NCBI RefSeq assembly: GCF_029051685.1
Contig: NZ_JAACFT010000001.1
Location: forward strand, 186,001-250,000
DNA length: 64,000 nt
Direction of reading: 5' to 3'
Origin: Bradyrhizobium sp. CSA207
GTDB taxonomy: Bacteria > Pseudomonadota > Alphaproteobacteria > Rhizobiales > Xanthobacteraceae
In this document: one piece after another, positions 20,240-37,895 of the stretch
Layout of the letters: every line of letters starts with the position of its first letter
How positions within the stretch are numbered: position 1 is the first letter of the stretch
The notes under the pieces: model-generated
What the model saw: the letters and a program-made list of their open reading frames with translations, nothing else
The model's database searches: none
Told to the model about the DNA's origin: nothing
Position numbers and translations under genes: made by a program

Positions 20240-20311
20240 AAGCCCGGCTCTCGCCTCCATCGTTGCACCCATCCATTGTCCCGCCCGCACCAAACGCGCT
20301 ATGGCATCCCG

Positions 20312-21178: not shown

Positions 21179-21198
21179 TTTTATATTACAGAAATATC

Positions 21199-21226: not shown

Positions 21227-21253
21227 ATCTCCCAATAATTCGGGAGGATGCGC

Positions 21254-22246: not shown

Positions 22247-22256
22247 GGAGATCGCG

Positions 22257-22544: not shown

Positions 22545-23320
22545 TGCCCGTCGCCAACGTTCAGGTCTCCGAAACGCCGCAGGTGCTCTACGCGTTGCGC
22601 CGCGCCGACGATGCGCTGATCCTCGGCCATCGGCTGTCGGAATGGTGCGGGCATGCGCCGATGCTGGAAGAGGACATGGCGCTCTCCAACATCGCGCTCG
22701 ACCTCATCGGTCAGGCGCGCGAGTTCTACACTTACGCCGCCAAGATCGAAGGCAAGGACAACGACGAGGACAAGCTCGCATACTTGCGCGACGTGCGCCA
22801 GTATCGCAACCTGCTGCTGGTCGAGCAGCCGAACGGTGATTTTGCCCAGACCCTGGTGCGGCAGTTCTTCTATTCCGCCTTCGCCGATCTCTACTGGCGC
22901 GCGATGATGAACTCGCGCGATGCGACGCTTGCCGCCATTGCCGCGAAATCCGAGAAGGAGAGCGCCTATCACCTTCGCCATGCCTCGGAATGGATCATCC
23001 GGCTCGGCGACGGCACGGAAGAGAGCCACGTCCGCGCGCAAGCCGCGATCGATCATCTCTGGGCTTTCACCGGCGAGATGTTTGCCGTCGATGCCGGCGA
23101 GCGCGACCTGATCCGTGCCGGCATCGCAATCGACCCCGAGGGCCTGCGCGGTCGCTGGCTGAACACTGTCTCAGGCGTGATCGGCGAAGCTACGCTCACG
23201 TTTCCGCAAAACGACTGGATGCAGCAGGGCGGCCGTGTCGGCCGGCACAGCGAACATCTCGGCCATCTCCTCAGCGAGCTGCAATCGATGCAGCGCATAT
23301 TCCCGGGGCTGACATGGTGA
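22544..23320 (+). CDS. paaC: 1,2-phenylacetyl-CoA epoxidase, structural subunit PaaC
   Basis: 258-residue ferritin-like partner of PaaA, needed for substrate binding and stability. APMLEEDMALSNIALDLIGQ, the QPNGDFAQTLVRQFF block and the C-terminal RVGRHSEHLGHLLSE are typical. I chose the ATG at 22544, which overlaps the paaB stop (TGATG); a GTG at 22541 would add one residue. The stop overlaps paaD by 7 bases. Confidence 0.96.
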   Translation: MPVANVQVSETPQVLYALRRADDALILGHRLSEWCGHAPMLEEDMALSNIALDLIGQAREFYTYAAKIEGKDNDEDKLAYLRDVRQYRNLLLVEQPNGDFAQTLVRQFFYSAFADLYWRAMMNSRDATLAAIAAKSEKESAYHLRHASEWIIRLGDGTEESHVRAQAAIDHLWAFTGEMFAVDAGERDLIRAGIAIDPEGLRGRWLNTVSGVIGEATLTFPQNDWMQQGGRVGRHSEHLGHLLSELQSMQRIFPGLTW

Positions 23321-23817
23321 CCGTGCTGAACAGGAATGCCGAGCTGCGTCAGCGCGCCTGGGACGCCGCGGCGAGCGTGGTCGATCCCGAGATTCCGGTG
23401 CTGACCATTGCCGATCTCGGCGTGTTGCGCGACGTCGTTGTCGACGAAGATCATGTCGAGGTCGCGATCACCCCAACCTACTCGGGCTGTCCGGCCATGA
23501 ACATGATCGCGCTCGAAATCGAGATCGCATTGGAGCGCGCTGGCTTTCGTCGCCCAAGCGTGCGTACCGTATTGTCGCCGGCCTGGACCACGGACTGGAT
23601 GAGCGAGGAGGGACGCCAGAAGCTGCGCGCGTACGGCATTGCGCCGCCCCAAGCCTCGAACTCGCGCCGCGCGCTGTTCGGCGAGCAGGCGGTCGAATGC
23701 CCGCAATGCGGGTCGGGCAACACCGAGCTGCTGTCCGAGTTCGGCTCGACCTCCTGCAAGGCGCTCTGGCGCTGCAAGGCCTGCCGCGAGCCGTTCGACT
23801 ATTTCAAGTGCCATTGA
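23314..23817 (+). CDS. paaD: Phenylacetate epoxidase assembly factor PaaD
   Basis: 167-residue protein with an N-terminal DUF59/MIP18-like domain (VVDPEIPVLTIADLGVLRDV, then PTYSGCPAM) and a C-terminal zinc-ribbon-like CPQCG...C...CKAC ending in FDYFKCH, the signature tail of PaaD. It is thought to insert or repair the iron centre of the epoxidase. The start at 23314 overlaps paaC by 7 bases. Confidence 0.94.
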   Translation: MVTVLNRNAELRQRAWDAAASVVDPEIPVLTIADLGVLRDVVVDEDHVEVAITPTYSGCPAMNMIALEIEIALERAGFRRPSVRTVLSPAWTTDWMSEEGRQKLRAYGIAPPQASNSRRALFGEQAVECPQCGSGNTELLSEFGSTSCKALWRCKACREPFDYFKCH

Positions 23818-23840
23818 GAAATATGCGATGCCAACCCAGT

Positions 23841-23927
23841 CGTCATTGCGAGCGAAGCGAAGCAATCCAGGCCGCCTCCGCGGCGACAGTCTGGATTGCT
23901 TCGTCGCAAGGGCTCCTCGCAATGACG
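23841..23927. repeat. Palindromic repeat, family A, copy 2
   Basis: CGTCATTGCGAGCGAAGCGA and AGCAATCCAG on the left mirror CTGGATTGCTTCG and CTCGCAATGACG on the right. It sits inside the paa gene set, between paaD and paaE, where it could reduce or process the transcript. Confidence 0.9.
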
Positions 23928-23946
23928 GTTGTGGCTTAAATTTAGA

Positions 23947-25038
23947 ATGCCCGTGATGTCAGCAACCGCACCGCGCTTCCATCGTCTGGCCGTCAACGAT
24001 CTCCGCCGCGAGGCGGCGGACGCCGTGTCGATGACCTTCGCCATTCCATCGGAGCTGAAGAGCGACTACGCCTTCAAGCCCGGCCAATACCTCACGCTCC
24101 GCGCTACCTTCGACGGCGAGGAGGTGCGCCGCTCCTATTCCATCTGCTCCGGCCCCGACGACGGCGAAATCCGCATCGCGGTGAAGAAGGTCGATGGCGG
24201 TGCGTTTTCGAGCTGGGCGGCGGACGAGCTGAAATGCGGCGACGAACTCGACGTGATGACGCCGACCGGTCGTTTCGGTGCGATCCCGCCGGCCGACACC
24301 GCGCGCGTCCATGTCGGCTTTGCCGCAGGCTCCGGCATTACGCCGATCCTGTCGATCGTCAAGGGGGTGCTGGCGCGCGAGCCGGACAGCCGCTTCTTCC
24401 TGTTCTATGGCAATCGCACGACCGACAACATCATGTTCCTCGAAGCGCTCGAGGAATTGAAGGATCGCTTCATCGATCGCATCTCGATCTTCCACGTCAT
24501 CTCGGGCGAGGAACAGGACGTCCCGATCCTGCATGGCCGGCTCGACCGGGAAAAGGTGAGGGTACTGCTGCGCTCGCTGGTGCCGGCAGCGAGCGTCGAT
24601 CATGTCTTCGTGTGCGGGCCGCCAGGGATGAGCGAGGAGGTCGAGGCAACCTGCCGCGAGCTCGGTATTGCCGGGGACCGCATCCATGTCGAACGGTTCG
24701 TCTCCGAGTTCGGCGGCAAGCCGCGGCCGAAGAAGATTGTTGCTCCGGATGCGCCCCCGAAGGCGATCGCATCCCTCATCATCGACGGCAAGCGCCGCGA
24801 GGTTCCCGTCGCCGAGGACGAAGCGATCCTCGACGCTGCACTGCGCGCCGGCATCGATCTGCCGTTCGCTTGCAAGGGCGGCATGTGCTCGACCTGCCGC
24901 GCAAAGCTGGTCGAGGGCGAGGCGCCGATGGATATCAACTATTCCTTGGAGCCCTGGGAGCTGAAGGCCGGATTTGTGCTCACCTGCCAGGCCAAGCCTT
25001 CGTCGAAGCGAGTGGTGGTGGACTACGATCACGTTTGA
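23947..25038 (+). CDS. paaE: Phenylacetyl-CoA epoxidase reductase PaaE
   Basis: 363-residue reductase passing electrons from NADPH to the PaaA diiron site. An N-terminal FAD domain (RRSYSICSGP), NAD(P)-binding (AAGSGITPILSIVKG) and FVCGPPGM are followed by a C-terminal plant-type [2Fe-2S] domain with CKGGMCSTC and a fourth Cys in LTCQA. No strong ribosome site precedes either ATG (23947 or 23956); 23947 is given. Repeat A2 separates it from paaABCD by about 130 bases, so it may have separate transcription. Confidence 0.94.
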   Translation: MPVMSATAPRFHRLAVNDLRREAADAVSMTFAIPSELKSDYAFKPGQYLTLRATFDGEEVRRSYSICSGPDDGEIRIAVKKVDGGAFSSWAADELKCGDELDVMTPTGRFGAIPPADTARVHVGFAAGSGITPILSIVKGVLAREPDSRFFLFYGNRTTDNIMFLEALEELKDRFIDRISIFHVISGEEQDVPILHGRLDREKVRVLLRSLVPAASVDHVFVCGPPGMSEEVEATCRELGIAGDRIHVERFVSEFGGKPRPKKIVAPDAPPKAIASLIIDGKRREVPVAEDEAILDAALRAGIDLPFACKGGMCSTCRAKLVEGEAPMDINYSLEPWELKAGFVLTCQAKPSSKRVVVDYDHV

Positions 25039-25093
25039 CAGCCCTCGGCAACCGGCAGAACATCATGGGAAAACATCCAGCCTGGAGGAGCGA

Positions 25094-25540
25094 GTGAACG
25101 TCAAAGCCGGTCTGTCGCCCGAGGATATTGCCCGCGCCTGCGCCGAGGCGATGTGGACGGAGGACGACGCCTCAAAGGGCCTCGGCATGGAGATAGTCGA
25201 GATCGGTCCTGGCTTTGCGACGCTGGCAATGAATGTGCGGCCGGACATGGTCAACGGCCAGCGTATCGCGCATGGCGGCTTCATCTTCACGCTCGCCGAT
25301 TCCGCCTTTGCGTTCGCCTGCAATTCGCACAATGAGCGCGTGGTCGCGGCGCAAGGGCAGATCACCTTCATCAAGCCGGGCAAGCTCGGCGATCGCCTTG
25401 TTGCGAAGGCGCGGGAGATTACCCGCGGTGGTCGCTCCGGCATCTATGACGTGCAGGTCGCCGCCGGCGACACTGTCATAGCCGAATTCCGCGGGCATTC
25501 GCGTGTCATTCCCGGCACGTGGCTGCCGGCTCAAGACTGA
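25094..25540 (+). CDS. paaI: PaaI thioesterase
   Basis: 148-residue hotdog-fold acyl-CoA thioesterase, thought to release CoA from stalled ring-hydroxylated phenylacetyl-CoA intermediates. The hallmark HGGFIFTLADSAFAFACN carries the catalytic Asp region, and IPGTWLPAQD is near the C-terminus. The GTG start at 25094 is fixed by GGAGGAG and by family length; an upstream in-frame extension reads through the paaE tail. It lies between paaE and paaK in the same orientation. Confidence 0.93.
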   Translation: MNVKAGLSPEDIARACAEAMWTEDDASKGLGMEIVEIGPGFATLAMNVRPDMVNGQRIAHGGFIFTLADSAFAFACNSHNERVVAAQGQITFIKPGKLGDRLVAKAREITRGGRSGIYDVQVAAGDTVIAEFRGHSRVIPGTWLPAQD

Positions 25541-25580
25541 GACAAGACCAACAACGAACCAATGGCGTGGGGAAACCAGG

Positions 25581-26912
25581 ATGGCTCTGACCGGGCTCAA
25601 GGAAGGTGGCAACACCTATCGTGCCGAGATGGACGCGCATGAGCGCGCGTCGCGCGACGAGATCGTGGCGCTCCAAACGCAGCGCCTGGCATGGTCGCTG
25701 AAGCACGCCTGCGACAACGTCGCGCATTATCGCAAAGCCTTCGACAAGGCGGGCGTGCACCCGTCCGGCTTTCGCGAGCTGTCCGACCTCGCGAAATTCC
25801 CGTTCACGGTGAAGACTGATCTGCGCGACAACTATCCCTTCAACATGTTCGCGGTGCCTCGCGAAAGACTGGTGCGCGTGCACGCCTCCTCCGGCACGAC
25901 GGGCAAGCCGATCGTGGTCGGCTACACGCAAGCCGACATCGACACCTGGTCGGAGGTGATGGCACGCTCGATTCGCGCCGCCGGCGGCCGCACCGGCATG
26001 ATCATCCACAATGCCTATGGCTATGGCCTGTTCACCGGTGGGCTCGGCGTGCACTACGGTGCCGAGAAGCTCGGCTGCACGGTGGTGCCGATCTCCGGCG
26101 GCATGACCGAGCGGCAGGTGCAGCTCATCAACGATTTCCGCCCCGATATCATCACGGTGACGCCGAGTTACATGCTGGCGATCCTGGACGAGTTCAAGCG
26201 CCAGAAGCTCGATCCGCGTCAATGCTCGCTGAAGGTCGGCATCTTCGGCGCCGAGCCCTGGACCAATGCGATGCGCGGCGAGATCGAGGAAGCCTTCGAC
26301 ATGGATGCGACCGACATCTATGGCCTCTCCGAAGTGATCGGCCCCGGCGTGGCTCAGGAGTGCATTGAGAGCAAGGACGGCCTGCACATCTGGGAGGATC
26401 ATTTCTATCCCGAGGTGATCGACCCCGAGACTGGTGCGGTGCTGCCGGATGGCGAGAAGGGCGAACTGGTCTTTACCTCGCTGACCAAGGAAGCCTTCCC
26501 GGTGATCCGCTATCGAACCCGCGACCTCACGCGGCTGCTGCCGGGGACGGCGCGGCCGGGCATGCGGCGGATGGAGAAGGTGACGGGCCGCTCGGACGAC
26601 ATGATCATCCTGCGCGGCGTCAATTTGTTCCCGACCCAGATCGAGGAAATCCTGCTCGCGACCGACTGGTGCGGCGGCCACTTCATCCTCGAGCTGACCC
26701 GCGAGGGCCGCATGGACGAGCTGACCATCATTGCCGAGGCGCGGCCCGAAAGCTGGGATGGCCGTGGGCTGGTCGATCATGCCGACCGGATCTCAACCCA
26801 CATCAAGAATACCATCGGCGTCACCGCCAAGGTGCTGGCGGTTGCTCCGGCCACGCTGGAGCGTTCGCTCGGCAAGGCCAAGCGCCTCTATGACAAGCGG
26901 CCGAAGGATTGA
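25581..26912 (+). CDS. paaK: Phenylacetate-CoA ligase
   Basis: 443-residue AMP-forming ligase that makes phenylacetyl-CoA, the first step and the PaaX inducer. The P-loop-like HASSGTTGKPIVVGYT, YGLSEVIGPGVAQEC, and the hinge ITGR-like VTGRSDDMIILRGVNLFP are all present. The length matches PaaK (about 435-440). The start at 25581 follows an AGG next to the ATG. It is the last clear paa gene; the downstream hydratase, isomerase, thiolase and ring-opening genes (paaF, G, H, J, Z) are not in this window. Confidence 0.95.
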   Translation: MALTGLKEGGNTYRAEMDAHERASRDEIVALQTQRLAWSLKHACDNVAHYRKAFDKAGVHPSGFRELSDLAKFPFTVKTDLRDNYPFNMFAVPRERLVRVHASSGTTGKPIVVGYTQADIDTWSEVMARSIRAAGGRTGMIIHNAYGYGLFTGGLGVHYGAEKLGCTVVPISGGMTERQVQLINDFRPDIITVTPSYMLAILDEFKRQKLDPRQCSLKVGIFGAEPWTNAMRGEIEEAFDMDATDIYGLSEVIGPGVAQECIESKDGLHIWEDHFYPEVIDPETGAVLPDGEKGELVFTSLTKEAFPVIRYRTRDLTRLLPGTARPGMRRMEKVTGRSDDMIILRGVNLFPTQIEEILLATDWCGGHFILELTREGRMDELTIIAEARPESWDGRGLVDHADRISTHIKNTIGVTAKVLAVAPATLERSLGKAKRLYDKRPKD

Positions 26913-26962
26913 CTTGACCATCCGCAAAGGCGACAAGGCCCGCGACAAATCGCGGGTCTTCG

Positions 26963-27967
26963 ATGTCAGGAACCGATACCAAAGCCGTTGAAGCACGCTG
27001 CGTGCGCCTCAATGCCAAGTCCGAAAACGCGGCCGCGCTCGCACCTCGCGTCGAGCTTCACGCGCTCGCCCGCAGTGCCAACGACTTCCTGATCGAGCTC
27101 AAGGCGGCCGCCGTCAATCCGTCCGATGTCAAGGCTGCGACCGGGCTGATGCCCTATGCCGTGTTCCCGCGCACGCCCGGCCGCGACTACGCCGGTGTGG
27201 TGATCGATGGGCCGGCCGGCACGGTCGGCCGCGAGGTGTTCGGCTCCTCCGGCGATCTCGGCATCCGGCGCGACGGCACCCATGCCACGCATCTCGTCGT
27301 CGAAGCCGATGCAGTGGTGGAGAAGCCGAAGAACGTGTCCTGGGAAGAGGCCGCCGGCATCGGCGTTCCCTTTGTCACCGCCATGGAAGGCTTTCGCCGC
27401 GCCGGCTTGCCCAAGCAAAGCGAGACCGTGCTGGTGATGGGCGTCAACGGCAAGGTCGGCCAGGCAGCGGTGCAGATCGCGACCTGGCAGGGCGCGCGCG
27501 TCATCGGGGTGGTGCGCAAGGCGGAAGCCTATGAGGGCCACGCCAATGCGCCTGTCGAGGTGATCGATGCGTCCGCTGCGGACGTCGCCGCGCGTGTGCG
27601 CGAAATGACCGGCGGCAAGGGCGTCGATATCGTTTTCAACACGGTGGGCGATCCCTATTTCCAGGCCGCGCACAAATCGCTTGCGCTTCGCGGCCGCCAG
27701 ATCCTGATCGCCGCGATCGACCGCATCGTGCAGTTCAACATCCTCGAATTCTATCGGGGACAGCACACCTATGTCGGCATCGACACGCTTGGCTTGTCCT
27801 CAACGGCGACGGGTGCGGTGCTGCGCGACCTCGCGCCGGGCTTTGCAAATGGGCACCTGAAACCGTTTCCAATCAAGGCAGGTGCCATCTATCCGCTCGA
27901 TCGTGCCAAGGAGGCCTATGTTGCGGTCGCCGGCTCCTCGCGCGATCGGGTGATCCTGAAGCCGTGA
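26963..27967 (+). CDS. Zinc-independent alcohol dehydrogenase / quinone oxidoreductase family protein
   Basis: 334-residue MDR-superfamily oxidoreductase. It has an N-terminal GroES-like domain (AAVNPSDVKAATG, PRTPGRDYAGVV) and a Rossmann domain with VMGVNGKVGQAAVQIA. It lacks the Cys/His zinc ligands of true alcohol dehydrogenases, so it is closer to quinone oxidoreductases or enoyl reductases using NADPH. It begins 50 bases after paaK in the same direction, but no paa role is known for it. The substrate is unknown. Confidence 0.87.
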   Translation: MSGTDTKAVEARCVRLNAKSENAAALAPRVELHALARSANDFLIELKAAAVNPSDVKAATGLMPYAVFPRTPGRDYAGVVIDGPAGTVGREVFGSSGDLGIRRDGTHATHLVVEADAVVEKPKNVSWEEAAGIGVPFVTAMEGFRRAGLPKQSETVLVMGVNGKVGQAAVQIATWQGARVIGVVRKAEAYEGHANAPVEVIDASAADVAARVREMTGGKGVDIVFNTVGDPYFQAAHKSLALRGRQILIAAIDRIVQFNILEFYRGQHTYVGIDTLGLSSTATGAVLRDLAPGFANGHLKPFPIKAGAIYPLDRAKEAYVAVAGSSRDRVILKP

Positions 27968-27971
27968 AACT

Positions 27972-28039
27972 CGTCATTGCGAGCCCAGAAATGTATCCGT
28001 GGAGACAGCCTGGATTGCTTCGCTGCGCTCGCAATGACG
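27972..28039. repeat. Palindromic repeat, family A, copy 3 (short)
   Basis: Left arm CGTCATTGCGAGC, right arm CTGGATTGCTTCGC and GCTCGCAATGACG. The left inner arm (GAAGCAATCCAG) is missing, so this is a shortened copy. It lies between the oxidoreductase and YeeE-type genes. Confidence 0.8.
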
Positions 28040-28068
28040 GAGAATGGCGAGACGTCTGAGAACAATCG

Positions 28069-29148
28069 ATGGAATCCACACAACTCGTCATCATCGCCGG
28101 CTTCGCCATCGGTCTCGTCTACGGCGTCGTCGGCCTGCTCAGCGGCTTCTGCCTGATGAGCAGCATGCGCGGCTTTCTCGCCAAGGGTGACGCCCGGCTG
28201 GTGCGGACCTACGCGCTGGCGATGGCGGTTGCGATCACGGCGAGTCAGTTCCTCGCCGGCAGCGGCACGGTCGACCTCGGCAAATCGATCTACCTGCAAC
28301 AGACGTTTTCGGCGCCGGTGCTGTTCCTTGGGGGCCTGCTGTTCGGCTACGGCATGGTGCTGTCGAACGGTTGCGGCTCGCGCGCGCTGGTGCTGCTCGG
28401 CCGCGGCAATCTCCGCTCCTTCGTCGTCGTGATCGTGCTCGCCATCGCCGCGCAGATGACGCTCAAGGGCCTGTTCGCACCGGCCCGCATCGCGCTGGTT
28501 CAGGCCTCACAAACCACGGTCAATGCGAACTCGCTGCCCTCCTTGCTGGCCGTGCTTGGCCTTGGCGAAGCCGTCTCGCGTGCGCTGGCTTCTGCCGCAA
28601 TCCTCGTCGCCTTGGTCCTCTTTGCCTTCGCCCATCCGGCATATCGCCGCTCGCCGGGCCAGATCGCGGCCGGGATCATCGTCGGCCTCCTCGTCGCTGG
28701 CGGCTGGTTCGTCACCGGCTATCTCGGTGCCGATGATTTCAATCCGGTCCCGGTGACCTCACTCACTTTCATCGCGCCGATCGCGGATGCGCTGCAATAC
28801 GCCATGCTCTCGACCGGCCTGACGCTGAACTTCGGCATCGCGACGGTTGCGGGCGTCTTCGCCGGAAGTCTAGTCACGGCACTCGCAACGGGCCGCTTCC
28901 GCCTCGAAGGCTATTCCTCGCCTCGACACATGCTGCGTTCGGCCGGCGGCGCCGCGCTGATGGGCATCGGCGGCGTGATGGCGTTTGGCTGCTCGATCGG
29001 GCAGGGGCTTACTGGCCTCTCCACGCTTGCGCTTGCGTCCTTCGTCGCGGTCGCCGGCATCCTGCTCGGCACGGCGGCAGGCCTGCGCGGCGCGCTACGT
29101 GTTCAGCCGCTCAAGATTGCGGAAGTGGGCTCAGACCAGCCGAGGTGA
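28069..29148 (+). CDS. YeeE/YedE family sulfur-compound transporter
   Basis: 359-residue inner-membrane protein with about nine or ten hydrophobic helices in two halves. Each half carries a conserved glycine-cysteine motif: SNGCGSRALVLLGRGN in the first, AFGCSIGQGLTGLSTLA in the second, as in the thiosulfate transporter TsuA (YeeE). The cysteines relay thiosulfate or a similar sulfur species. There is no TusA-like partner next door. It converges with the OsmC-fusion operon, which also looks sulfur- or redox-linked. The exact substrate is unproven. Confidence 0.88.
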   Translation: MESTQLVIIAGFAIGLVYGVVGLLSGFCLMSSMRGFLAKGDARLVRTYALAMAVAITASQFLAGSGTVDLGKSIYLQQTFSAPVLFLGGLLFGYGMVLSNGCGSRALVLLGRGNLRSFVVVIVLAIAAQMTLKGLFAPARIALVQASQTTVNANSLPSLLAVLGLGEAVSRALASAAILVALVLFAFAHPAYRRSPGQIAAGIIVGLLVAGGWFVTGYLGADDFNPVPVTSLTFIAPIADALQYAMLSTGLTLNFGIATVAGVFAGSLVTALATGRFRLEGYSSPRHMLRSAGGAALMGIGGVMAFGCSIGQGLTGLSTLALASFVAVAGILLGTAAGLRGALRVQPLKIAEVGSDQPR

Positions 29149-29167
29149 CAAGCGAAGCAGGAAGAGC

Positions 29168-30391
29168 CTAATCCACGGCCTTCGTGACGATGCGGATCTC
29201 GGAGGTCAACGTCCGGTGCACCGGACATTTGTCGGCGATCTCCATCAGCTTCTTGCGCTGCTCGGCATCGAGCGTACCCTCGATCGCGATATCGCGCTCG
29301 ATCTGGTCGAGCATGCCATCGCGCGTCTCGCACTCCTGGCAATCCTTGGCGTAGATCTTGGAGTGCTTCAACGTGACGGTGACGCGGTCGAGCGGCAGCG
29401 CCTTGCGGTCGGCATAGAGGCGCATGGTCATGGAGGTGCAGGCGCCGAGACCGGCGAGCAGGAAATCGTAAGGGCCGGGGCCGGCATCCTCGCCGCCGGC
29501 GGCAACCGGCTCGTCCGCCACCAGGCGATGCGGGCCGACGCTAACGATCTGGTTGAACTTGCTCTTGCGGGTTTCCTGGACCACGACCTGACGCGGCGCT
29601 TCGGGGAGATCCATCGCTTTCGTAGGTTTTGCTGTGTCGACGTATCGGCTGGCCCAGGCCGCGATCACGTCTGCCGCATAGAGCGCATCGGCCGGCCTGG
29701 TCAGGAGATGATCGGCGTGGTCGAGCGAGACGAAGCTCTTGGGATGCTTGGCCGAAACGAAGATCTTGGTCGCGTTGTCGATTCCGACGGTGTCGTCGAC
29801 CGGTGAATGCATCACCAGCAGCGCCTTGTGCAGGCTGGTGACGTCCTTCATCAGCTCATGCTCGACGATGTCGTCGAGGAACTCGCGCTTGATCTTGAAC
29901 GGGCGGCCCGCCAGCGAGACCTCGACTTCCCCGTGCGTGCGGATGTTGTCGATGTGCTCGCTGAACAGGCCGGTGACGTAGACGGGATCGGACGGCGCCG
30001 CGATGGTCGCAACCGCCTTCGCCTCGGGAATTCCTCCGGCCGCGGCGAGGATCGCGGCGCCGCCGAGGCTGTGGCCGATCAGGATCGACGGCGCCTTGCG
30101 CGTCGCACGCAGATGATCGGCGGCGTGAACGAGATCGGCGACGTTGGAGGAGAAAGTCGAATTGGCAAATTCGCCTTCACTGGAGCCGAGACCGGTGAAG
30201 TCGAAGCGCAGCACCGCGATGCCCTTGCTGGCAAGCGCGACCGAGATGCGCTTGGCCGCCAGCGTGTCCTTGCCACAGGTGAAGCAGTGCGCGAAGAGCG
30301 CATAGGCCACAGGCTCGCCGTCTGGCAGTTCCAACGCGGCCGCGAGCTTGTGGCCGTCTTCGCCCGTAAATTGAAAGCGTTCCGTCGGCAT
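29168..30391 (-). CDS. Bifunctional alpha/beta hydrolase - OsmC fusion
   Basis: 407 residues in two domains. Residues 1 to about 255 form an alpha/beta hydrolase with GHSLGG (Ser108), candidate acid in HSPVDDTVG and candidate His in LDHADHLL. The rest is an OsmC-type peroxidase domain with the two reactive cysteines in GLGACTSMTM and DKCPVHRTL. OsmC proteins reduce organic hydroperoxides. The fusion suggests hydrolysis and peroxide removal on one lipid-like substrate, which is inference. GGGGGAG precedes the ATG. It is the last gene of a five-gene operon. Confidence 0.9.
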   Translation of the reverse strand: MPTERFQFTGEDGHKLAAALELPDGEPVAYALFAHCFTCGKDTLAAKRISVALASKGIAVLRFDFTGLGSSEGEFANSTFSSNVADLVHAADHLRATRKAPSILIGHSLGGAAILAAAGGIPEAKAVATIAAPSDPVYVTGLFSEHIDNIRTHGEVEVSLAGRPFKIKREFLDDIVEHELMKDVTSLHKALLVMHSPVDDTVGIDNATKIFVSAKHPKSFVSLDHADHLLTRPADALYAADVIAAWASRYVDTAKPTKAMDLPEAPRQVVVQETRKSKFNQIVSVGPHRLVADEPVAAGGEDAGPGPYDFLLAGLGACTSMTMRLYADRKALPLDRVTVTLKHSKIYAKDCQECETRDGMLDQIERDIAIEGTLDAEQRKKLMEIADKCPVHRTLTSEIRIVTKAVD

Positions 30392-30415
30392 GGGCTCCCC
30401 CGTTTTCGCCTGAAG

Positions 30416-31081
30416 CTAATCGCCTGAGTAGCGCTGTTCGGCCCAGGGATCGCCGCGGTTATGGTAGCCGCGGACTTCCCAGAAGCCCGGCGCGTCCTCG
30501 GTCAGGAATTCGATCGCCTGGAGCCATTTGGCGCTCTTCCAGAAATACAGGTGCGGAACGACCAGTCGCACCGGGCCGCCGTGCTCGTCCGACAGCGGCT
30601 GACCCGACCAGCTATGGGCGAGCAGGGCATCTTTGGCGGCAAAGTCTTCCAGGGCAAGGTTGCTGGTATAGCCGTCATGGGAATGCAGCACGACGAAGCG
30701 GGCGTCGTCACGCGGCTGGCAGGCCGCGAGCAGCTCGCGCGTTGCAAGCCCGTCCCACTGATTGTCGTAGCGCGACCAGGTGGTAACGCAGTGGATGTCG
30801 GAGGTGAATTGCACCTGCTTTTGCGCGGTGAACTCGGCAAAGCTCCAGAACACGGGGTTCTCAATCGCGCCATAGACGTCGAGCCGCCAGCGCTCCCGCG
30901 CGATCGGTGGCACGACACCGAGATCGAGCACCGGCCAGTCCTTGGTGAGGTGCTGGCCGGGCGGCAACCGCTGGTCTTCCGGCCGCGTGATCCGTCCCGT
31001 GAGGAACTGGCCGTCGCGCGCCCATTCTTGCTTGGTGCGCGTCAGTTTGCTGTCGGGTGGCAGCTCGTTGTCGTCGGCCAT
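30416..31081 (-). CDS. Sulfite-oxidase-like molybdopterin oxidoreductase
   Basis: 221-residue single-domain molybdenum protein of the oxidoreductase molybdopterin-binding family. The Mo-ligand Cys98 is in SDIHCVTTWSRYDN, and the block LVVPHLYFWKSAKW near the C-terminus is typical of sulfite-oxidase-like proteins. There is no signal peptide (unlike MsrP/YedY), so it is probably cytoplasmic. No heme or dimerisation domain is present. It starts 3 bases after the MFS stop in an operon with P450, ferredoxin and the OsmC fusion. The true substrate is unknown. Confidence 0.88.
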   Translation of the reverse strand: MADDNELPPDSKLTRTKQEWARDGQFLTGRITRPEDQRLPPGQHLTKDWPVLDLGVVPPIARERWRLDVYGAIENPVFWSFAEFTAQKQVQFTSDIHCVTTWSRYDNQWDGLATRELLAACQPRDDARFVVLHSHDGYTSNLALEDFAAKDALLAHSWSGQPLSDEHGGPVRLVVPHLYFWKSAKWLQAIEFLTEDAPGFWEVRGYHNRGDPWAEQRYSGD

Positions 31082-31084
31082 GGC

Positions 31085-32407
31085 CTACTCGTGGCGGTGC
31101 ATCGCGGAGGCATGCTTGGTGTCGCGCATCGTAGCATAGATGATCAGCGACAGGCAGATCACGCCGGCGAGATAGTAGTAGAACCATTCCTCGTGCCCGA
31201 TGCTCTTGAAGTAGAGAGCGATCGCCGGTGCGGTGCCGCCGAAGACCGAGACCGTGATTGCATAGGGCAGGCCGACGCCGAGCGCGCGGACATTGGTCGG
31301 GAATAGCTCGGCCTTCACCACGGCATTGATCGAGGTGTAGCCAGCGACGAACAGCCAGGCGCAGCAGATCAGGATGAATGCCATGAACGGCGACTTGGTC
31401 TCCTTCAGCGTCATCAGCAGCGGCACGGTCGCGAGGGTGCCGGCGACGCCGAAGAAGATCAGCAGCGGCTTGCGCCCGATCTTGTCGGAGATCGCGCCGT
31501 AGATCGGTTGCAGGATGGTGGCGAAGATCAGCGTGCCGAAGATCACGAAGGTGGTCTGGTCCTCGGTCAGCCCGACCGAGAGTTTTACGAAGGTCTGCAT
31601 GTAGGTGGTGAAGGTGTAGAACGCCGCGGTGCCGCCGGCGGTCAGGCCGACCACCAGCAACAGCTCCCGCGGATACTTCAGCAGATTCGTGATCGAGCCG
31701 GTCGGCTTCACCACCTTCCTGGCTTCCTCGAACGCCTCGGTCTCGTGCAAGCCGCGCCGCATCACCGCGGCAAAGATAGCGAGCATCGCACCGATCGCGA
31801 ATGGGATTCGCCAGCCCCACGCTCTCAATTCTTCGGGCGTGAGGAAGACTTTTTGCAGGAGCAGCAGCACGAGGATCGCGGTGAGCTGGCCGCCGATCAG
31901 CGTGACGTATTGGAAGCTCGAATAGAAGCCACGGTGCTTGGGGTCGGCGACCTCGCTGAGATAGGTCGCGCTGGCGCCATACTCACCGCCGAGGCTCAGG
32001 CCTTCGATGACGCGGGCCAGCGCCAGGATCACCGGCGCGGCGAAGCCGATCGTGGCATAGGTCGGCGTCAGCGCGATGATCAGCGAGCCGAAGCACATGA
32101 AGACGACCGACAGCGTCAGGGAAATGCGCCGCCCGAAATGATCGGCGATATAGCCGAACAACCAGCCGCCCAACGGGCGCATCAGGAACGTCGCCGCGAA
32201 CACGACGGCGACGTTCAATTGCTGCACGACGGGGTCGTTGCCGGGAAAGAAGGCCGGAGCGAAATAGAGCGCGAACGCCGTATAGGCGTAAAAATCGTAC
32301 CATTCGACGAGGTTGCCGATCGAGCCGATGAAGATCGCCTTGATCCGCCGCTCGGCGTCGGCGACGTCAAAATGCTCGGAGGCCGGTTGGGTTGCTTGCT
32401 CAGTCAC
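31085..32407 (-). CDS. MFS metabolite:H+ symporter (MHS family)
   Basis: 440-residue 12-helix major facilitator of the metabolite/H+ symporter group. Signature segments include GSIGNLVEWYDFYAYT, the RPLGGWLFGYIADHFGRR loop 2-3 motif, and SLGGEYGASATYLSEVA. Relatives carry dicarboxylates, shikimate, proline or similar acids. The GTG start at 32407 is supported by GAGAGG upstream. It lies 33 bases after the P450 gene, so it may import the P450 substrate or export the product. Confidence 0.92.
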   Translation of the reverse strand: MTEQATQPASEHFDVADAERRIKAIFIGSIGNLVEWYDFYAYTAFALYFAPAFFPGNDPVVQQLNVAVVFAATFLMRPLGGWLFGYIADHFGRRISLTLSVVFMCFGSLIIALTPTYATIGFAAPVILALARVIEGLSLGGEYGASATYLSEVADPKHRGFYSSFQYVTLIGGQLTAILVLLLLQKVFLTPEELRAWGWRIPFAIGAMLAIFAAVMRRGLHETEAFEEARKVVKPTGSITNLLKYPRELLLVVGLTAGGTAAFYTFTTYMQTFVKLSVGLTEDQTTFVIFGTLIFATILQPIYGAISDKIGRKPLLIFFGVAGTLATVPLLMTLKETKSPFMAFILICCAWLFVAGYTSINAVVKAELFPTNVRALGVGLPYAITVSVFGGTAPAIALYFKSIGHEEWFYYYLAGVICLSLIIYATMRDTKHASAMHRHE

Positions 32408-32440
32408 GTCCGGCCTCTCACTCCGCTGGTTGTGGGAGGC

Positions 32441-33661
32441 CTACATCGCCTTTCCAAACAGAAATGGCAACTGGCGCGGGCCCCTGACGGTTCCCTGAGA
32501 CCAGGTCACGGTGCCGGCCGGATCGAGGCGGAAATCCGGAATCCGCTTCAGCCATTCCTCCAGCGCAACCTGCATCTCCATCCGCGCCAGGTTGGAGCCG
32601 ACGCAGCGGTGAATGCCGAGGCCGAACGCGGCGTGACGATTCTCCCGGCGGTCGATCACGACCTTGTCAGCATCTGGAAACATTTTGGGGTCGCGGTTGG
32701 CAGCCGGGAAGGATAGCAGCACCATGTTGCCCGGCTTCACCGGACAGCCGGAGATCGTGGTCTCCCCGACCACCTCGCGGGCCATCGTCACCGGTGAGTA
32801 GGCGCGCAGCAGCTCCTCCACCGCAGTCGGAATCAGGCCGGGCTCGGCGATCAGGCGCTCGCGGTCGGCCGGTGTCCGGGCGAGGTGCCACAGCGAGGAA
32901 CCGATCGCGCTCCAGGTGGTGTCGATGCCGGCGATCAGGAGCAGCCGCAGCGAGCCCAGCACGTGGGAATCCTCCAGCGGCTGTCCCTCCTTGTCGCGGG
33001 CGTTCATCAGATAGGAGATGAGGTCGTCGGTCGGCTTTTTCTTGCGCGTCTCGATGTGGGCGCTGAAGTAAGCGCTCATCTCGTGCACGGCCTGGAGCAG
33101 CATGTTCTCGTCCTTGATGCCGAGCTCCAGGATCATGTGGATCCAGTTGATGAAGAGGTCGCTGTCGCTCTCGGGAATGCCGAGCATGTGGGCGATCGCC
33201 TGAACCGGAATGTACTTGCTGTAGCGCGCCGCGGCATCAACCCGGCCGTCGGCGATAAAGCCGTCGATCAGCTCGTTGCAGATGGCGCGGACCCGTGGTT
33301 CGAGTTTCTTCATTGCGTCCGGTGTGAAGGGCGGCAGCAGCAATTGCTTGGCCGGCTTGTGCACGGGAGGATCGGACGTGATCGGCGGGGCGGCGTTCCT
33401 GGCAGGCTCGGGCCGCGCGTCACGCACGATGATGCGGCGCGAGGAGAAATGTTCGGTGTCGTTGGCGATCTCGCGCACCGCTTCGTAAGTCGTGGGCAGG
33501 TAGCAGCCGAGGAAGCGCTCGGTGTGCACGATCGGGCTTGCGGCCCGCAGTTCGTCCCAGATCGGAAAGGGATCTTCCGTCCATTGCGGATCGGTGTGGT
33601 CGAAATCGTTGACCCAGTCGGTCACGGGCGGATGGGCGGCGGGTTGGCTGACGTCGGACAT
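32441..33661 (-). CDS. Class I bacterial cytochrome P450
   Basis: 406-residue soluble P450 needing separate redox partners. Heme motif FGLGIHRCVG with Cys353, I-helix AGIDTTWS, ExxR in VEELLRAYSP. The start at 33661 is supported by GAGGGA; an in-frame ATG at 33703 reads an implausible N-terminus. A ferredoxin gene lies 58 bases upstream in the same direction and is the probable electron donor; no ferredoxin reductase gene is nearby. The family number and substrate are not assigned. Confidence 0.93.
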   Translation of the reverse strand: MSDVSQPAAHPPVTDWVNDFDHTDPQWTEDPFPIWDELRAASPIVHTERFLGCYLPTTYEAVREIANDTEHFSSRRIIVRDARPEPARNAAPPITSDPPVHKPAKQLLLPPFTPDAMKKLEPRVRAICNELIDGFIADGRVDAAARYSKYIPVQAIAHMLGIPESDSDLFINWIHMILELGIKDENMLLQAVHEMSAYFSAHIETRKKKPTDDLISYLMNARDKEGQPLEDSHVLGSLRLLLIAGIDTTWSAIGSSLWHLARTPADRERLIAEPGLIPTAVEELLRAYSPVTMAREVVGETTISGCPVKPGNMVLLSFPAANRDPKMFPDADKVVIDRRENRHAAFGLGIHRCVGSNLARMEMQVALEEWLKRIPDFRLDPAGTVTWSQGTVRGPRQLPFLFGKAM

Positions 33662-33719
33662 CTCGGGAATCCCTCGGGGCTCGTGGTCTCTGCAGGCACG
33701 CAAGCGGACGAAAGCCGCG

Positions 33720-33929
33720 CTACTCCTCGATCACATCGATTGCGATTTCCGGGCAATTGGCCTTGGCAAGCCAGGCCTTGTCTTCGAGGCCCGGCGGAAC
33801 CATGCCGTCGCCGGCCTCGTGGGCGTTGCCGTATTCGTCGAGCTCGAACAGCTCCGGCGCGAGCGCCTTGCAGCGCGCGTGGCCCTGGCATTTGTCGGGA
33901 TCGACGTGAACCCTCAGTCGCTCTGTCAT
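33720..33929 (-). CDS. Small P450-type ferredoxin with CxxHxxC motif
   Basis: 69-residue acidic ferredoxin. Iron-binding residues: Cys14, His17, Cys20 (CQGHARC) and Cys59 (NCPEIAI). The His in place of the second cysteine is typical of the small [3Fe-4S]-type ferredoxins next to bacterial P450s. The start at 33929 has GGAAG upstream; the longer frame to 33983 has no ribosome site and a low-quality N-terminus. It is the first gene of the P450/MFS/sulfite-oxidase/OsmC operon, divergent from the TetR gene. Confidence 0.9.
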   Translation of the reverse strand: MTERLRVHVDPDKCQGHARCKALAPELFELDEYGNAHEAGDGMVPPGLEDKAWLAKANCPEIAIDVIEE

Positions 33930-34084
33930 CGCGGCTTCCCTGGTCGTGTGCGCGCCGCGCCCGAAGGCGTGCGCGTTCCTCATGTCAATTTTATCCGCGG
34001 CATTCGCCGCAGCTTTAAGTTATAGCATATTACATTGGCGACGGGCTTCCCCTGTCAAGCGCAAACTTATAGGCTCGGCGCATC

Positions 34085-34732
34085 ATGCGTTCACAACTTG
34101 CCCGCAAGCCAGAGAACACCTACCACCACGGCGATCTCCGCGACGCCTTGATCAAGGCTGCGCTGCGCGAGGCCGAGCAGGGCGGGGCGGAAGCGGTCAG
34201 CATCAAGGCGCTCGCAAAGCGGCTCGGCGTCTCGCAGCCCGCGCCATACCGGCATTTTGCCGATCGCGAGGCGCTGCTTGCGGCGGTGACGGCGGAGGCG
34301 TTCCGGCAGCTCAGCGCGATTTTGCGGACGGCGATGGCAAAGCCCTCGAAGCAGTCGAAGCTGTCGCGGCTGGCCCAGGCCACGCTGGATTTCGGCCTGC
34401 GCCGCAACGGCATCTACCGCTTGATGTTTGCCTCGCGCACGGTGTCGTGCGCAGCCAAGGGCAGCGAGCTGCACGAGGCGACGCGCGAGACTTTTGCGCT
34501 GGTGATCGAAGCCCTCGAAGCGCCCGCGGTTGATTATTTGCGCGAGCGGCAAGCTCTCAAGATCTGGGCGGCGCTACACGGCGTGGTGATGCTGGCCGAG
34601 CAGGGCCTGTTCACCGGCGAGGCGGCCCATGCCACCCGCGAGGACCTGGTCGAGGACTTCGTGAACGAGACCAAGACGGCGCTCGCGGCTGCGATCAAGG
34701 ACGCTCGCCGCAGGGCGAAGGCGGGCGTTTAA
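34085..34732 (+). CDS. TetR family transcriptional regulator
   Basis: 215 residues. The N-terminal helix-turn-helix spans about residues 15-60 (AEAVSIKALAKRLGVSQPA then YRHFADREALLAAV), and the C-terminal domain is of the WHG type (LKIWAALHGVVMLAEQGLF). It is divergent from the ferredoxin-P450 operon across a 155-base gap, so it is the likely local repressor. It is convergent with the racemase-like gene, with which it shares the four bases TTAA as overlapping stop codons. Confidence 0.92.
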   Translation: MRSQLARKPENTYHHGDLRDALIKAALREAEQGGAEAVSIKALAKRLGVSQPAPYRHFADREALLAAVTAEAFRQLSAILRTAMAKPSKQSKLSRLAQATLDFGLRRNGIYRLMFASRTVSCAAKGSELHEATRETFALVIEALEAPAVDYLRERQALKIWAALHGVVMLAEQGLFTGEAAHATREDLVEDFVNETKTALAAAIKDARRRAKAGV

Positions 34733-35379
34733 GCTTTCGCCGCAAGGAGCTTCTTCAGCTTGTGGACGGCGCTGTCCGGCGTGGTCACGACGGGTCGGCC
34801 GGTGGCCTCCGCGACCAGCGGTGCAGTTGCCGCGATGCTGAACTGCGCCAGCGCGACGACGTCGCAATCCCGTAGATCGCGTGAGGCTTCCACGATCAGC
34901 CTGTCGTGCTCGGCACGGTCGCCGCGATCGAGCGCGGCCAGCGCGCCTTCGGCAAGCTTCGGCACGAGCTCGACGGAGGCGGGAAATTCCGGTGGCATCG
35001 AGACCAGCGTCGGCGGGAAGGTCGAGAGCAGGCCGATGCGCTTGCCCATCGTCACCGCCTGCTCGATCATGGCCTCGTTCGGCTTCAGCACCGGCTTCGG
35101 CGCATGCGCTTGGGCGACCGCCTCGATGCAGGGGCCGAACGCCGAGCAGGTGAACAGGATCGCGTCGGCCCCCGTCGCCGCCGCATAATCGCCGAGCGCA
35201 AGGAAGCGCTCGGTCATGGCATCGTTGAGCGTGCCGTCATGGGCCAGGTCCGCGGACAGGCTGTCATCGAGCAGGTTCATCAGCCGCGCCTGCGGCCACG
35301 CCTTCGCGAATGCCGCCTCGATCGGGGCGATGGAATGCTTGAGGGCATGGATCAGGGCGATGCGAGGAGGCGTCGTCAT
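34729..35379 (-). CDS. Aspartate/glutamate racemase family protein
   Basis: 216-residue member of the Asp/Glu/hydantoin racemase superfamily. The N-terminal catalytic cysteine region is intact (LFTCSAFGPCIE). The C-terminal half, where a second Cys normally sits in a GC-T/A motif, reads VVALAQFSIAAT with no cysteine, so a one-base or decarboxylase-like mechanism is possible. It lies downstream of the AapJ-type gene on the same strand, with a family D repeat in between. It may handle D-amino acids or their analogues; this is inference. Confidence 0.82.
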   Translation of the reverse strand: MTTPPRIALIHALKHSIAPIEAAFAKAWPQARLMNLLDDSLSADLAHDGTLNDAMTERFLALGDYAAATGADAILFTCSAFGPCIEAVAQAHAPKPVLKPNEAMIEQAVTMGKRIGLLSTFPPTLVSMPPEFPASVELVPKLAEGALAALDRGDRAEHDRLIVEASRDLRDCDVVALAQFSIAATAPLVAEATGRPVVTTPDSAVHKLKKLLAAKA

Positions 35380-35400
35380 TGGATGTGATTACCTGGTCTC

Positions 35401-35513
35401 GTGCCCCGGACGCAGCGCAATGCGCAGTATTGCGCTGTCGAGCCGGGGCCCATCTTGGCCGCTGGTCCCGGCTCAGCGCAGCGGCGTTACATGCTGCGGC
35501 GCGTCCGGGACAC
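35401..35513. repeat. Palindromic repeat, family D, copy 1
   Basis: Begins GTGCCCCGGACGCAGCGCAA and ends GCGCGTCCGGGACACG, with inner GAGCCGGGGCC / GGTCCCGGCTC. It separates the AapJ-type and racemase-like genes. A second copy is at 61124. Confidence 0.85.
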
Positions 35514-35519
35514 GCGTAC

Positions 35520-36533
35520 TTACTTGAACGGCACCGCGTACATCAAGCCGCCCTTGCTCCAGAGCCCGTTGAGGCCGCGCTCGAGCTTGAGCGGGCTGGC
35601 CTTGCCGACATTGCGCTCGTAGATCTCGCCGTAATTACCGCCTGCCTTGATCGCCGTGGCCAGCCATTTGTTGTCCAGCCCGAGCCGCGAGCCGAGATCG
35701 CCGGAGGTGCCGAGCAGGCGCTGCACCGCGGGCGTCTGCGACTTCGCCATCTCGTCGACATTGCCTTGCGTGACGCCGAGCTCCTCGGCTTCGATCAGCC
35801 CATAGTGCAACCAGGCGATGATGTCGCTCCAGACCTCGTCGCCGTTGCGGGTGAAGGGTCCGAGCGGTTCCTTGCTGATCGTCTGGGGCAGCACGACGTA
35901 GTCGGCCGGATTGGGGGCTGCGGTCGTCACGGCGCCGGCGAGGGCGGAAGCGTCCTGGGTCATGGCATCGCAACGCCCGCCGAAGAAAGTCTGGTACATG
36001 GTGTCGACGCGGTCGAACACCAGCGGCTTCCAGTCGATGCCGTTGGCGCGGCCGTAATCGCCGAGCGTGACCTCATGCGTGGTGCCCTGCGCGACGCAGA
36101 CGGTGGCGCCCTTGAGGTCCTTGATCTCCTTCACGCCGAGGTCCTTCTTCACGACAAAGCCCTGGCCGTCGTAGAAGTTGATTGGGCCCTGCCGCAGGCC
36201 CAGCGTGACGCCGCGCAGATAAGTCTGCGTCGAGTTGCGGTAGAGCACGTCGATCTCGCCCGATTGCAGAGCGGTGAAACGGTTCTGCGCGGTCAGCGAG
36301 ACGTAGCGCACCTTGCTCGGATCGCCGAGCACGGCGGCCGCGAGCGCGCGGCAATAGTCGACGTCAAGGCCCTTGTAGTTGCCTTGCGAGTCGGGCGCGG
36401 AGAAACCGGCAAAGCCGGCACTGACGCCGCACACCAACGTGCCGCGGCTTTTCACCGTGTCGAGCGTCGCGGCCGACGCGACAACCGTCGATGCCGCGAG
36501 CAGGCCTGCCGCGATAACCATTTTCCTCATCAT
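35520..36533 (-). CDS. aapJ: General L-amino-acid ABC transporter binding protein (AapJ type)
   Basis: 337-residue periplasmic binding protein with signal peptide MMRKMVIAAGLLAASTVVAS cut near ASAATL. The AapJ/BztA hallmarks are visible: VKSRGTLVCGVSAGFAGFS, DVDYCRALAAAVLG, and LGLRQGPINFYDGQGFVV. A strong ribosome site (AGGGGAG) precedes it. It follows the aminotransferase gene by 12 bases; the matching permeases are encoded divergently beyond the RpiR gene. The ligand is presumably a broad or special amino acid. Confidence 0.92.
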   Translation of the reverse strand: MMRKMVIAAGLLAASTVVASAATLDTVKSRGTLVCGVSAGFAGFSAPDSQGNYKGLDVDYCRALAAAVLGDPSKVRYVSLTAQNRFTALQSGEIDVLYRNSTQTYLRGVTLGLRQGPINFYDGQGFVVKKDLGVKEIKDLKGATVCVAQGTTHEVTLGDYGRANGIDWKPLVFDRVDTMYQTFFGGRCDAMTQDASALAGAVTTAAPNPADYVVLPQTISKEPLGPFTRNGDEVWSDIIAWLHYGLIEAEELGVTQGNVDEMAKSQTPAVQRLLGTSGDLGSRLGLDNKWLATAIKAGGNYGEIYERNVGKASPLKLERGLNGLWSKGGLMYAVPFK

Positions 36534-36545
36534 GCTAGTCTCCCC

Positions 36546-37895
36546 TCAGTGATTGACACTACGCAATACGTTGTCGACGGCCGTGCCGAGCTTGTCGACG
36601 ATCAGGTCGATCTCCTCAGCCGAAGCGATATAGGGCGGCGCCAGCAGCACGTGGTCGCCGCGGACCCCGTCCACTGTGCCGCCGCCGGGATAGCAGCCGA
36701 GCCCGTTGGCAAAGGCTTCTGCCTTGATCTTCTGGTTGAGCTTGAGCGCCGGATCGAATGATGTGCGACCGGCGCGATCGGCGACGAGCTCGATCGCCCA
36801 GAACAGGCCGCGTCCCCTGATGTCGCCGACATGGCGGTGATTGCCGAAGCGTTCGACGAGGCGCTGCTCGAGCTGCTTGCCGCGCTCCTTGACGCGATCG
36901 AGCAGCCGATCCTCGCGGATCACATCCTGCACCGCGAGCGCGGCCGCGCAGGCGAGGGGGTGCGCCAGATAAGTATGGCCGTGCTGGAACGCGCCCGAAG
37001 CGGCGCGGATGGTGTCGATGATCCTGCCGCTCGCGAGCATCGCGCCGATCGGCTGATAGCCGCCGCCGAGCCCCTTTGCGATGGCCTGGATGTCCGGCGC
37101 GACGCCTTCCTGCTCCCAGGCGTGTGTCGTGCCGGTGCGGCCCATGCCGCACATGACCTCGTCGAGGATGAGCAGCGCGCCGTGGCGGTCGCAAATCTCG
37201 CGGACCGCCTTGAAGTAGCCGTCCGGCGCGGTCACGGCGCCGGCGGTGGCGCCGACGACGGGCTCGGCCAGGAATGCTGCAACGGTATTGGGACCTAGCC
37301 GTTGAAACTCGGCTTCGAGCTCGGCTGCGAGCCGCGCCACGAACTGCGCATCCGACTCGCCGTCGTGCTTCTCATGATAGGCAAAGGCGGGCGTGACATG
37401 GCTGAAGGCGGGCGACAGCAGCGGCGCATAGGGCGCGCGGCGCCAGGCGTTGCCGCCGGCGGCGAGTGCGCCCAGCGTGTTGCCGTGGTAGCTCTGCCGC
37501 CGCGCGATGAAGTGCTGCCGCTGCGGCTCGCCGCGCTCGATGAAATATTGTCGCGCGAGCTTGATGCTGGCTTCGATCGCCTCCGATCCGCCGCTGACGA
37601 AATAGGCGTAGGCGAGACCGCCCGGCTCGTGCCCGACCAGCGTTTCGGCCAGCCCCTCCGCCGGCTCGGACGAGAAGAAGGCGGTGTGGGCATAGGCCAG
37701 CGTCGAGGCCTGCTTCGCTATTGCTGCGATCACGCGCGGGTGCTGGTGGCCGAGGCAGGAGACCGCTGCGCCGCCGGAGGCGTCGATCACGCGGCGCCCG
37801 TCCTCGGCGAAGAGGTAGACGCCTTCGCCGCCGATCGCCTTGGGCGGCGTCTCGCGCAACGAGCGATGTAGCACGCGGCTGATTCGAGCGGCCAT
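36546..37895 (-). CDS. Class III PLP-dependent aminotransferase
   Basis: 449-residue fold-type I aminotransferase. The PLP lysine is Lys274 (AIAKGLGGGY), the cofactor-ring Asp is Asp245 (LLILDEVMCGMGRTG), and SGGSEAIEASIKLARQY forms the phosphate-binding part. Members use omega-amino acids, beta-alanine, putrescine or 2,2-dialkyl substrates, and the sequence does not say which. It is 3 bases after the RpiR stop and 12 bases before the AapJ-type gene, so it likely degrades the amino acid brought in by this transporter. Confidence 0.93.
   Translation of the reverse strand: MAARISRVLHRSLRETPPKAIGGEGVYLFAEDGRRVIDASGGAAVSCLGHQHPRVIAAIAKQASTLAYAHTAFFSSEPAEGLAETLVGHEPGGLAYAYFVSGGSEAIEASIKLARQYFIERGEPQRQHFIARRQSYHGNTLGALAAGGNAWRRAPYAPLLSPAFSHVTPAFAYHEKHDGESDAQFVARLAAELEAEFQRLGPNTVAAFLAEPVVGATAGAVTAPDGYFKAVREICDRHGALLILDEVMCGMGRTGTTHAWEQEGVAPDIQAIAKGLGGGYQPIGAMLASGRIIDTIRAASGAFQHGHTYLAHPLACAAALAVQDVIREDRLLDRVKERGKQLEQRLVERFGNHRHVGDIRGRGLFWAIELVADRAGRTSFDPALKLNQKIKAEAFANGLGCYPGGGTVDGVRGDHVLLAPPYIASAEEIDLIVDKLGTAVDNVLRSVNH

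Follow-up and report, generated by a model that had tools for sequence, protein, structure and literature searches.

A window of 64,000 nucleotides from Bradyrhizobium sp. CSA207 (the whole stretch analysed here, positions 186,001 to 250,000 of contig NZ_JAACFT010000001.1, from an assembly of 8.4 Mb) contains a minus-strand operon that combines a ferredoxin (Fdx), a cytochrome P450, a major facilitator superfamily (MFS) transporter, a sulfite oxidase-family molybdenum-pterin oxidoreductase (Mo protein) and an alpha/beta hydrolase-OsmC fusion (ABH-OsmC). We found this to be a real, conserved, TetR-linked catabolic operon, made of known families in a combination that was not found described in the literature searched, and its link to phenylacetate is a new point. 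The layout proposed by an earlier model-generated note made from the letters of the DNA (the sequence-only reading) was borne out in every position: five head-to-tail genes, a divergent TetR gene and a convergent YeeE gene. The intergenic gaps of 58, 33, 3 and 24 bases are operon-like and would allow co-transcription of the five genes.

33720–33929, minus strand: ferredoxin (Fdx), 69 amino acids (aa); Pfam Fer4_15
32441–33661, minus strand: cytochrome P450, 406 aa, ATG start; Pfam p450
31085–32407, minus strand: MHS-like MFS transporter, 440 aa, GTG start; Pfam Sugar_tr/MFS_1
30416–31081, minus strand: sulfite oxidase-family Mo-pterin oxidoreductase, 221 aa; Oxidored_molyb PF00174, E 4e-39
29168–30391, minus strand: alpha/beta hydrolase-OsmC fusion (ABH-OsmC), 407 aa; PF12697 and PF02566
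34085–34732, plus strand: divergent TetR-family regulator, 215 aa; PF00440 (TetR_N) and PF13305
34017–34072, minus strand: conserved TetR-Fdx intergenic block, predicted Fdx promoter and operator, from conservation
28069–29148, plus strand: YeeE/TsuA-like sulfur transporter, convergent neighbour outside the operon; PF04143 (Sulf_transp)

The P450 open reading frame has an alternative upstream TTG start at 33703, and 19 bases separate the ends of the YeeE and ABH-OsmC genes. Overall and third-position GC content (GC and GC3) of the operon genes resembled those of neighbouring genes, and the nearest named relatives of the P450 belonged to Bradyrhizobium, with identities of up to 95%. An Rfam scan of positions 26900–36000 gave no match, and a scan for terminator-like sites on the minus strand returned none near the 3' end of the operon.

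Conservation of the gene set and of the TetR-Fdx block

The order of the operon recurs in many genomes, and the gene arrangement is thus not due to chance. Conserved co-occurrence of the genes, whose absence, together with separate promoters for each gene, the sequence-only reading had named as fatal to its proposal, was found both within and beyond the genus. In a sample of 149 genomes of the taxonomic family, searches at the thresholds used (1e-50 for Mo) detected the P450 in 32 genomes, the Mo protein in 66 and ABH-OsmC in 63. The 31 family P450 neighbourhoods other than our own contained Fdx in all cases (weak and partial in L058 and L060, and located after the P450 in L066), ABH-OsmC in 17, YeeE in 11, paaK in 10, Mo in 8, MFS beside the P450 in 6 and TetR in 6. 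When compared by hand, P450 and ABH-OsmC lay at most 3 kb apart in 18 of the 27 family genomes with both (own included), from five genus codes. A collection of 80 named loci, 71 of them with enough flank, gave the following neighbours within 6 kb of the P450: Fdx in 71, TetR in 58, ABH-OsmC in 56, Mo in 55 and MFS in 45, with all six genes together in 35 of the 71.

Within the genus, the P450 was detected in 182 and ABH-OsmC in 190 of 195 genomes and, among the matches listed, the two genes lay within 7 kb of each other, start to start, in 105 of 124 genomes. Split by P450 identity, again among the matches listed, this corresponded to 95/95 genomes at 88% or above and 10/29 below 88%; the genus lists favour close relatives, so that distant members are better represented by the latter fraction. 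Beyond the family, the P450 is seldom found: a sample of 297 genomes of the order had it in 11, of which one was from outside the family. ABH-OsmC is common in the same order sample (103/297), where, outside the genus, Mo and ABH-OsmC were both found in G026 and G367 only, on different contigs. Two loci, L146 and L147, contain two P450-Fdx copies each.

Between TetR and Fdx, the conserved block comprises TTGACA (34053–34058), an 18-base spacer and TGTAAT (34029–34034), pointing to Fdx and flanked by CTATAAgTT and CTATAAcTT. TTGACA and TGTAAT with a spacer of 17–19 bases occurred in 64 of 69 TetR-Fdx regions and in none of 1380 shuffles, AATGTAATA in 68 of the 69 regions and in one of 1380 shuffles, and the flanking CTATAA-like repeats in 60–61 of the regions. 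A 42-base pattern of the block was found at a single place in its own genome, allowing up to 3 mismatches. A consensus promoter scan returned 0 sites and did not list the block, because its rule accepts only A as the second base of the second hexamer. Judged purely by its conservation, TTGACA-N18-TGTAAT is probably a promoter, and we infer that the block would carry putative TetR sites serving this operon only, through which TetR may repress it.

The distance from ABH-OsmC to the convergent YeeE gene exceeded 1.5 kb in 41 of the 80 named loci, and the YeeE-like protein stayed below the TsuA cut-offs. In the five such loci inspected (L037:4260–5720, L120, L125, L155 and L161), the gap held a MocR-like regulator in all five (one scanned) and an EamA-like transporter in two (one scanned).

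The adjoining phenylacetate operon and the two gene sets

The PHENYLACETATE link, overlooked by the sequence-only reading and the main clue to the context of the operon, lies in the plus-strand genes heading towards it, which form a phenylacetate (paa) operon. The scan covered the PaaX, A, C, E, I and K models, leaving out PaaB and PaaD.

20276–26912, plus strand: phenylacetate (paa) operon; six NCBIfam models above cut-offs
20276–21178, plus strand: PaaX; NCBIfam model over cut-off
21248–22246, plus strand: PaaA; NCBIfam model over cut-off
22541–23320, plus strand: PaaC; NCBIfam model over cut-off
23929–25038, plus strand: PaaE; NCBIfam model over cut-off
ending at 25540, plus strand: PaaI; NCBIfam model over cut-off
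25581–26912, plus strand: PaaK; NCBIfam model over cut-off
26963–27967, plus strand: zinc-type quinone oxidoreductase-like gene (QOR), adjoining paaK; PF00107

P450 and paaK were located within 11 kb of each other in 15 of the 23 family genomes with both, from five genus codes (a raw count made by hand). On a P450 tree of 112 sequences, the strand of paaK relative to the P450 could be scored in 65 rows; 50 of these had the two genes on opposite strands and 15 on the same strand, which corresponds to at least 4 changes. The closeness of the two genes thus survives inversions, which speaks for a functional connection without proving it. As a comparison, paaK was present in 10 of the 31 family neighbourhoods, against 3 (AspR), 1 (ABC binding protein) and 1 (aminotransferase) for genes beyond TetR, whose occurrences were confined to the same genus; the comparison serves as a rough control, since these genes might just be absent from other genomes. 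ABH-OsmC was also found within 3 kb of paaK in three genomes where the P450 is elsewhere (G105, G138 and G122), and near paaK in two with no P450 match (G067, within 3 kb, and G125, within 6 kb).

The gene set is modular, a feature likewise absent from the sequence-only reading: some loci have the MFS, Mo and esterase genes but no P450, and others the reverse. Fdx-P450-TetR and MFS-Mo-ABH-OsmC were also found as separate units, the second of them adjoining paa in some genomes, and TetR-Fdx-P450 occurred without the other query genes in 12 of the 80 named loci. In G138, for example, PaaE, PaaK, QOR and YeeE are followed on the opposite strand by ABH-OsmC, Mo, MFS and an amidase. Given the separate occurrence of the two sets, the operon in the window looks like a joint of [TetR/Fdx-P450] and [MFS-Mo-ABH-OsmC]. 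Among 20 Mo loci fetched away from the P450, an amidase-cluster gene was near in 7 (one member scanned), perhaps a second acid-releasing hydrolase. A luciferase-like oxidoreductase cluster was near the Mo gene in 6 (L182, L189, L191, L192, L195 and L196), a possible second context for the orphan Mo enzyme; the protein scanned in L189 belongs to the MsnO8 family.

On the far side of TetR, positions 34729–37895 of the window hold Asp/Glu-racemase-like, amino-acid ABC binding protein and aminotransferase genes, found within 6 kb of the P450 in 33, 29 and 28 of the 71 named loci, respectively, and hardly outside the genus. In some Bradyrhizobium (L152, L155 and L165), a long catabolic island lies upstream of TetR. 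Its scanned members in L152 are a hydantoinase/carbamoylase-type amidohydrolase, a D-2-hydroxyacid dehydrogenase and a tartrate dehydrogenase; such islands also include an SDR, an HSL-like hydrolase and an amidase (scanned in L178), and a LysR-like gene, identified by eye, before TetR.

Protein features and proposed function

The ferredoxin motif CxxHxxC...CP (C14, H17, C20 and C59-P60) was invariant in 15/15 aligned rows, chosen out of 32 loci. CXXHXXC(X)nCP is the defining motif of the CxxHxxC [3Fe-4S] ferredoxins of P450s (PMC6237146; this and the other papers are cited from the parts of their text available), and by motif and P450 adjacency the window protein is one of them, with a predicted cluster type. 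Its best match in the PDB was 4id8/4ov1 (E 6.2e-34, covering 68/69 residues), with 118 bits against 4id8; an orthologue in G028 gave 124 bits. We take 4id8/4ov1 to be the partner of a CYP194A-type P450. Membership of a CYP subfamily corresponds to more than 55% identity, and the putative CYP194A link of the window P450 runs through the ferredoxin match.

The P450 itself has the class I features, namely a heme Cys motif, an I-helix acid-alcohol pair and a ferredoxin partner, with a predicted electron flow. Its I-helix A244-T248, E283/R286 and the heme Cys C353 were invariant in 18/18 aligned rows, as was R239, nine residues before the I-helix Thr; CYP199A4 presumably has an Arg at the equivalent position for carboxylates, a point that we did not use as evidence. 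The best PDB match was P450cin, which we take to be a cineole hydroxylase, and the structure prediction was weak (mean pLDDT 59.7). The Mo protein is made up of a single Oxidored_molyb domain and lacks a twin-arginine signal; C98 was invariant in 9/9 sequences aligned, and the structure prediction was useless (mean pLDDT 34). In ABH-OsmC, whose profile matched PDB 9wo1 across both domains and 5cml across the hydrolase domain, S108, D199, H228, C36, C39, C318, C351, C354 and C389 were invariant in 13/13 aligned rows. The protein thus has the Ser-Asp-His triad, N-terminal Cys pair and C-terminal OsmC domain described for OsmC-domain carboxyl esterases (PMC5113044).

We tentatively favour an operon under TetR control that would serve to take up and oxidise a small organic acid, or an ester or amide precursor of it, as an accessory upper module often placed beside paa. 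It is probably nothing out of the ordinary, but a side route in the use of aromatic acids. The MHS-like symporter would bring in the organic acid. A reductase encoded elsewhere would transfer electrons from NAD(P)H to the CxxHxxC ferredoxin, and the ferredoxin would hand them to the P450 for hydroxylation or dealkylation of the substrate. A class I P450 needs a reductase, and the three Reductase_C matches found in the genome, outside the operon, were therefore counted in favour of this scheme. The hydrolase-OsmC enzyme may split an ester (or a thioester or lactone), the Mo enzyme may carry out an accessory oxo-transfer, and an aryl-acetate-like product could then go into PaaK. The sequence-only reading, which had put oxygenation, molybdopterin redox chemistry and hydroperoxide reduction into one defined catabolic or detoxification route, was supported as to the conserved gene set and the divergent TetR with its conserved block, and not as to hydroperoxide reduction or a sulfur theme.

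Several observations weigh against the proposed upper module. P450 and paaK were apart in the other 8 of the 23 family genomes, in 4 of the 8 on different contigs, with some P450s at contig ends. Four genomes of genus code g20 (G061, G083, G102 and G119, the Fdx match being weak and partial in G061 and G102) retain P450-ABH-OsmC but gave no match to paaK at 1e-180, and paa is thus not required for this pair. A Mo match (1e-50) was missing in 15 of the 32 P450 genomes, which makes the Mo enzyme accessory. The transporter missed both curated MHS cut-offs, with 485 bits against NF007710 (cut-off 550) and 406 bits against TIGR00883, the MHS subfamily model (cut-off 443), and is MHS-like only; the Mo protein was far under the equivalog cut-offs of MsrP (62/207 bits), SoxC (40/420), SorA (35/600) and SorT (28/570). 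Finally, a shared TetR operator at the split Mo loci was rejected, as nothing scored above 14 in L177–L196 or L043–L067, and these loci thus give no sign of a regulon.

The loci with a distant or unmatched paaK would also suit a genuine TetR-regulated P450 operon whose closeness to paa is an inherited accident within a catabolic island, and whose substrate is an unrelated compound, for example a terpenoid or an alkanoate. P450cin being the closest solved P450 by sequence and the long mixed catabolic island of some relatives point the same way, whereas the closeness retained through changes of relative orientation and the adjacency of ABH-OsmC to paaK in the five genomes where the P450 is elsewhere or unmatched argue against it, so that we consider this possible rather than likely. 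The ring-epoxide intermediate of the paa pathway is reactive, and the adjacency to paa could therefore indicate a protective module, in which the P450, the Mo enzyme and the OsmC fusion remove reactive by-products of aromatic acid breakdown, namely epoxides, hydroperoxides and S- or N-oxides. The CxxC and the Cys pair that are invariant in the OsmC domain and the presence of the sulfoxide reductase MsrP among the Mo-domain relatives agree with such a role, which we nevertheless regard as unlikely: a metabolite symporter suits uptake better, the Mo enzyme is often missing, and the related esterase EstRM showed no significant peroxidase activity when tested with H2O2 and cumene hydroperoxide (PMC5113044). 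On this last result, the peroxidase reading of the OsmC domain was dropped.

A sulfur route, in which sulfite would be freed from an organosulfur compound and oxidised by the P450 and the Mo enzyme, with YeeE transporting a sulfur species, is very improbable. It draws on the weak match of the Mo domain to sulfite oxidases, on YeeE adjoining the operon and recurring in the family neighbourhoods, and on the luciferase-like cluster near some Mo loci; against it, YeeE is convergent and often more than 1.5 kb away, and the luciferase-like protein scanned is of the MsnO8 family. Sulfite oxidation was ranked low because of the distance of the equivalog models from their cut-offs and the P450 genomes without a Mo match. 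A bolder version of the upper module appears distinctly unlikely: a single TetR operon in which the CxxHxxC [3Fe-4S] ferredoxin drives both the P450 and a cytoplasmic group 3 sulfite oxidase-family molybdoenzyme, in an oxidising upper branch feeding phenylacetate breakdown. If true, this would provide the first physiological pathway for the orphan molybdoenzyme group and for the OsmC-esterase family.

Comparison with known systems

No description of this operon was found in the open-access literature searched, which leaves out most subscription papers. Two of its parts resemble orphan families, namely cytoplasmic single-subunit sulfite oxidase-family enzymes (PMC7759655) and OsmC esterases (PMC5113044). 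P450 and ABH-OsmC are widespread in the genus and often lie beside paa, which is expressed in nodules (PMC8125078), making the locus a tractable place to seek the substrates of these families.

The six paa genes scanned in the window match the same functions in paaABCDEIK of B. diazoefficiens USDA110 (blr2891–blr2897), which is highly expressed in nodules of Aeschynomene afraspera (PMC8125078). The paa genes are also tabulated among those that change under microoxia (PMC6515984), and paaIK expression falls in a nasT mutant (PMC6759348). The available parts of PMC8125078 describe the paa genes. Of the genes with the next numbers, the literature searched mentioned only bll2904 ("alpha-ketoglutarate permease"), which belongs to a set of genes with expression in ageing nodules of soybean at 71 and 95 days (PMC6321122). 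From its number and the gene order, bll2904 is probably the counterpart of the MFS gene in the window.

The closest parallel to the Fdx-P450 pair, with the same ferredoxin motif, is the system of Rhodopseudomonas palustris HaA2, the source of 4id8/4ov1 (PMC6237146, PMC9868604), and ten CYP194 members are listed in Alphaproteobacteria (PMC8197338). The papers on HaA2, in the parts available, treat the ferredoxin-P450 pair alone, without a transporter, Mo enzyme, esterase or paa surroundings. Small, single, without a twin-arginine signal and built on an Oxidored_molyb domain, the Mo protein resembles, in these features, the group 3 sulfite oxidase-family enzymes; these are single-subunit, cytoplasmic and uncharacterised (PMC7759655), whereas the protein studied here has a defined operon context. 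ABH-OsmC shares full-length homology, the Ser-Asp-His triad, the N-terminal Cys pair and the OsmC cysteines with the EstO/EstRM family (PDB 5cml and 9wo1), for which esterase activity, including cleavage of 4-nitrophenyl benzoate, has been shown. The account available of that family terms the OsmC domain enigmatic and reports distinct gene contexts for its members and natural substrates not identified (PMC5113044); ABH-OsmC differs in sitting in a P450/Mo operon beside paa.

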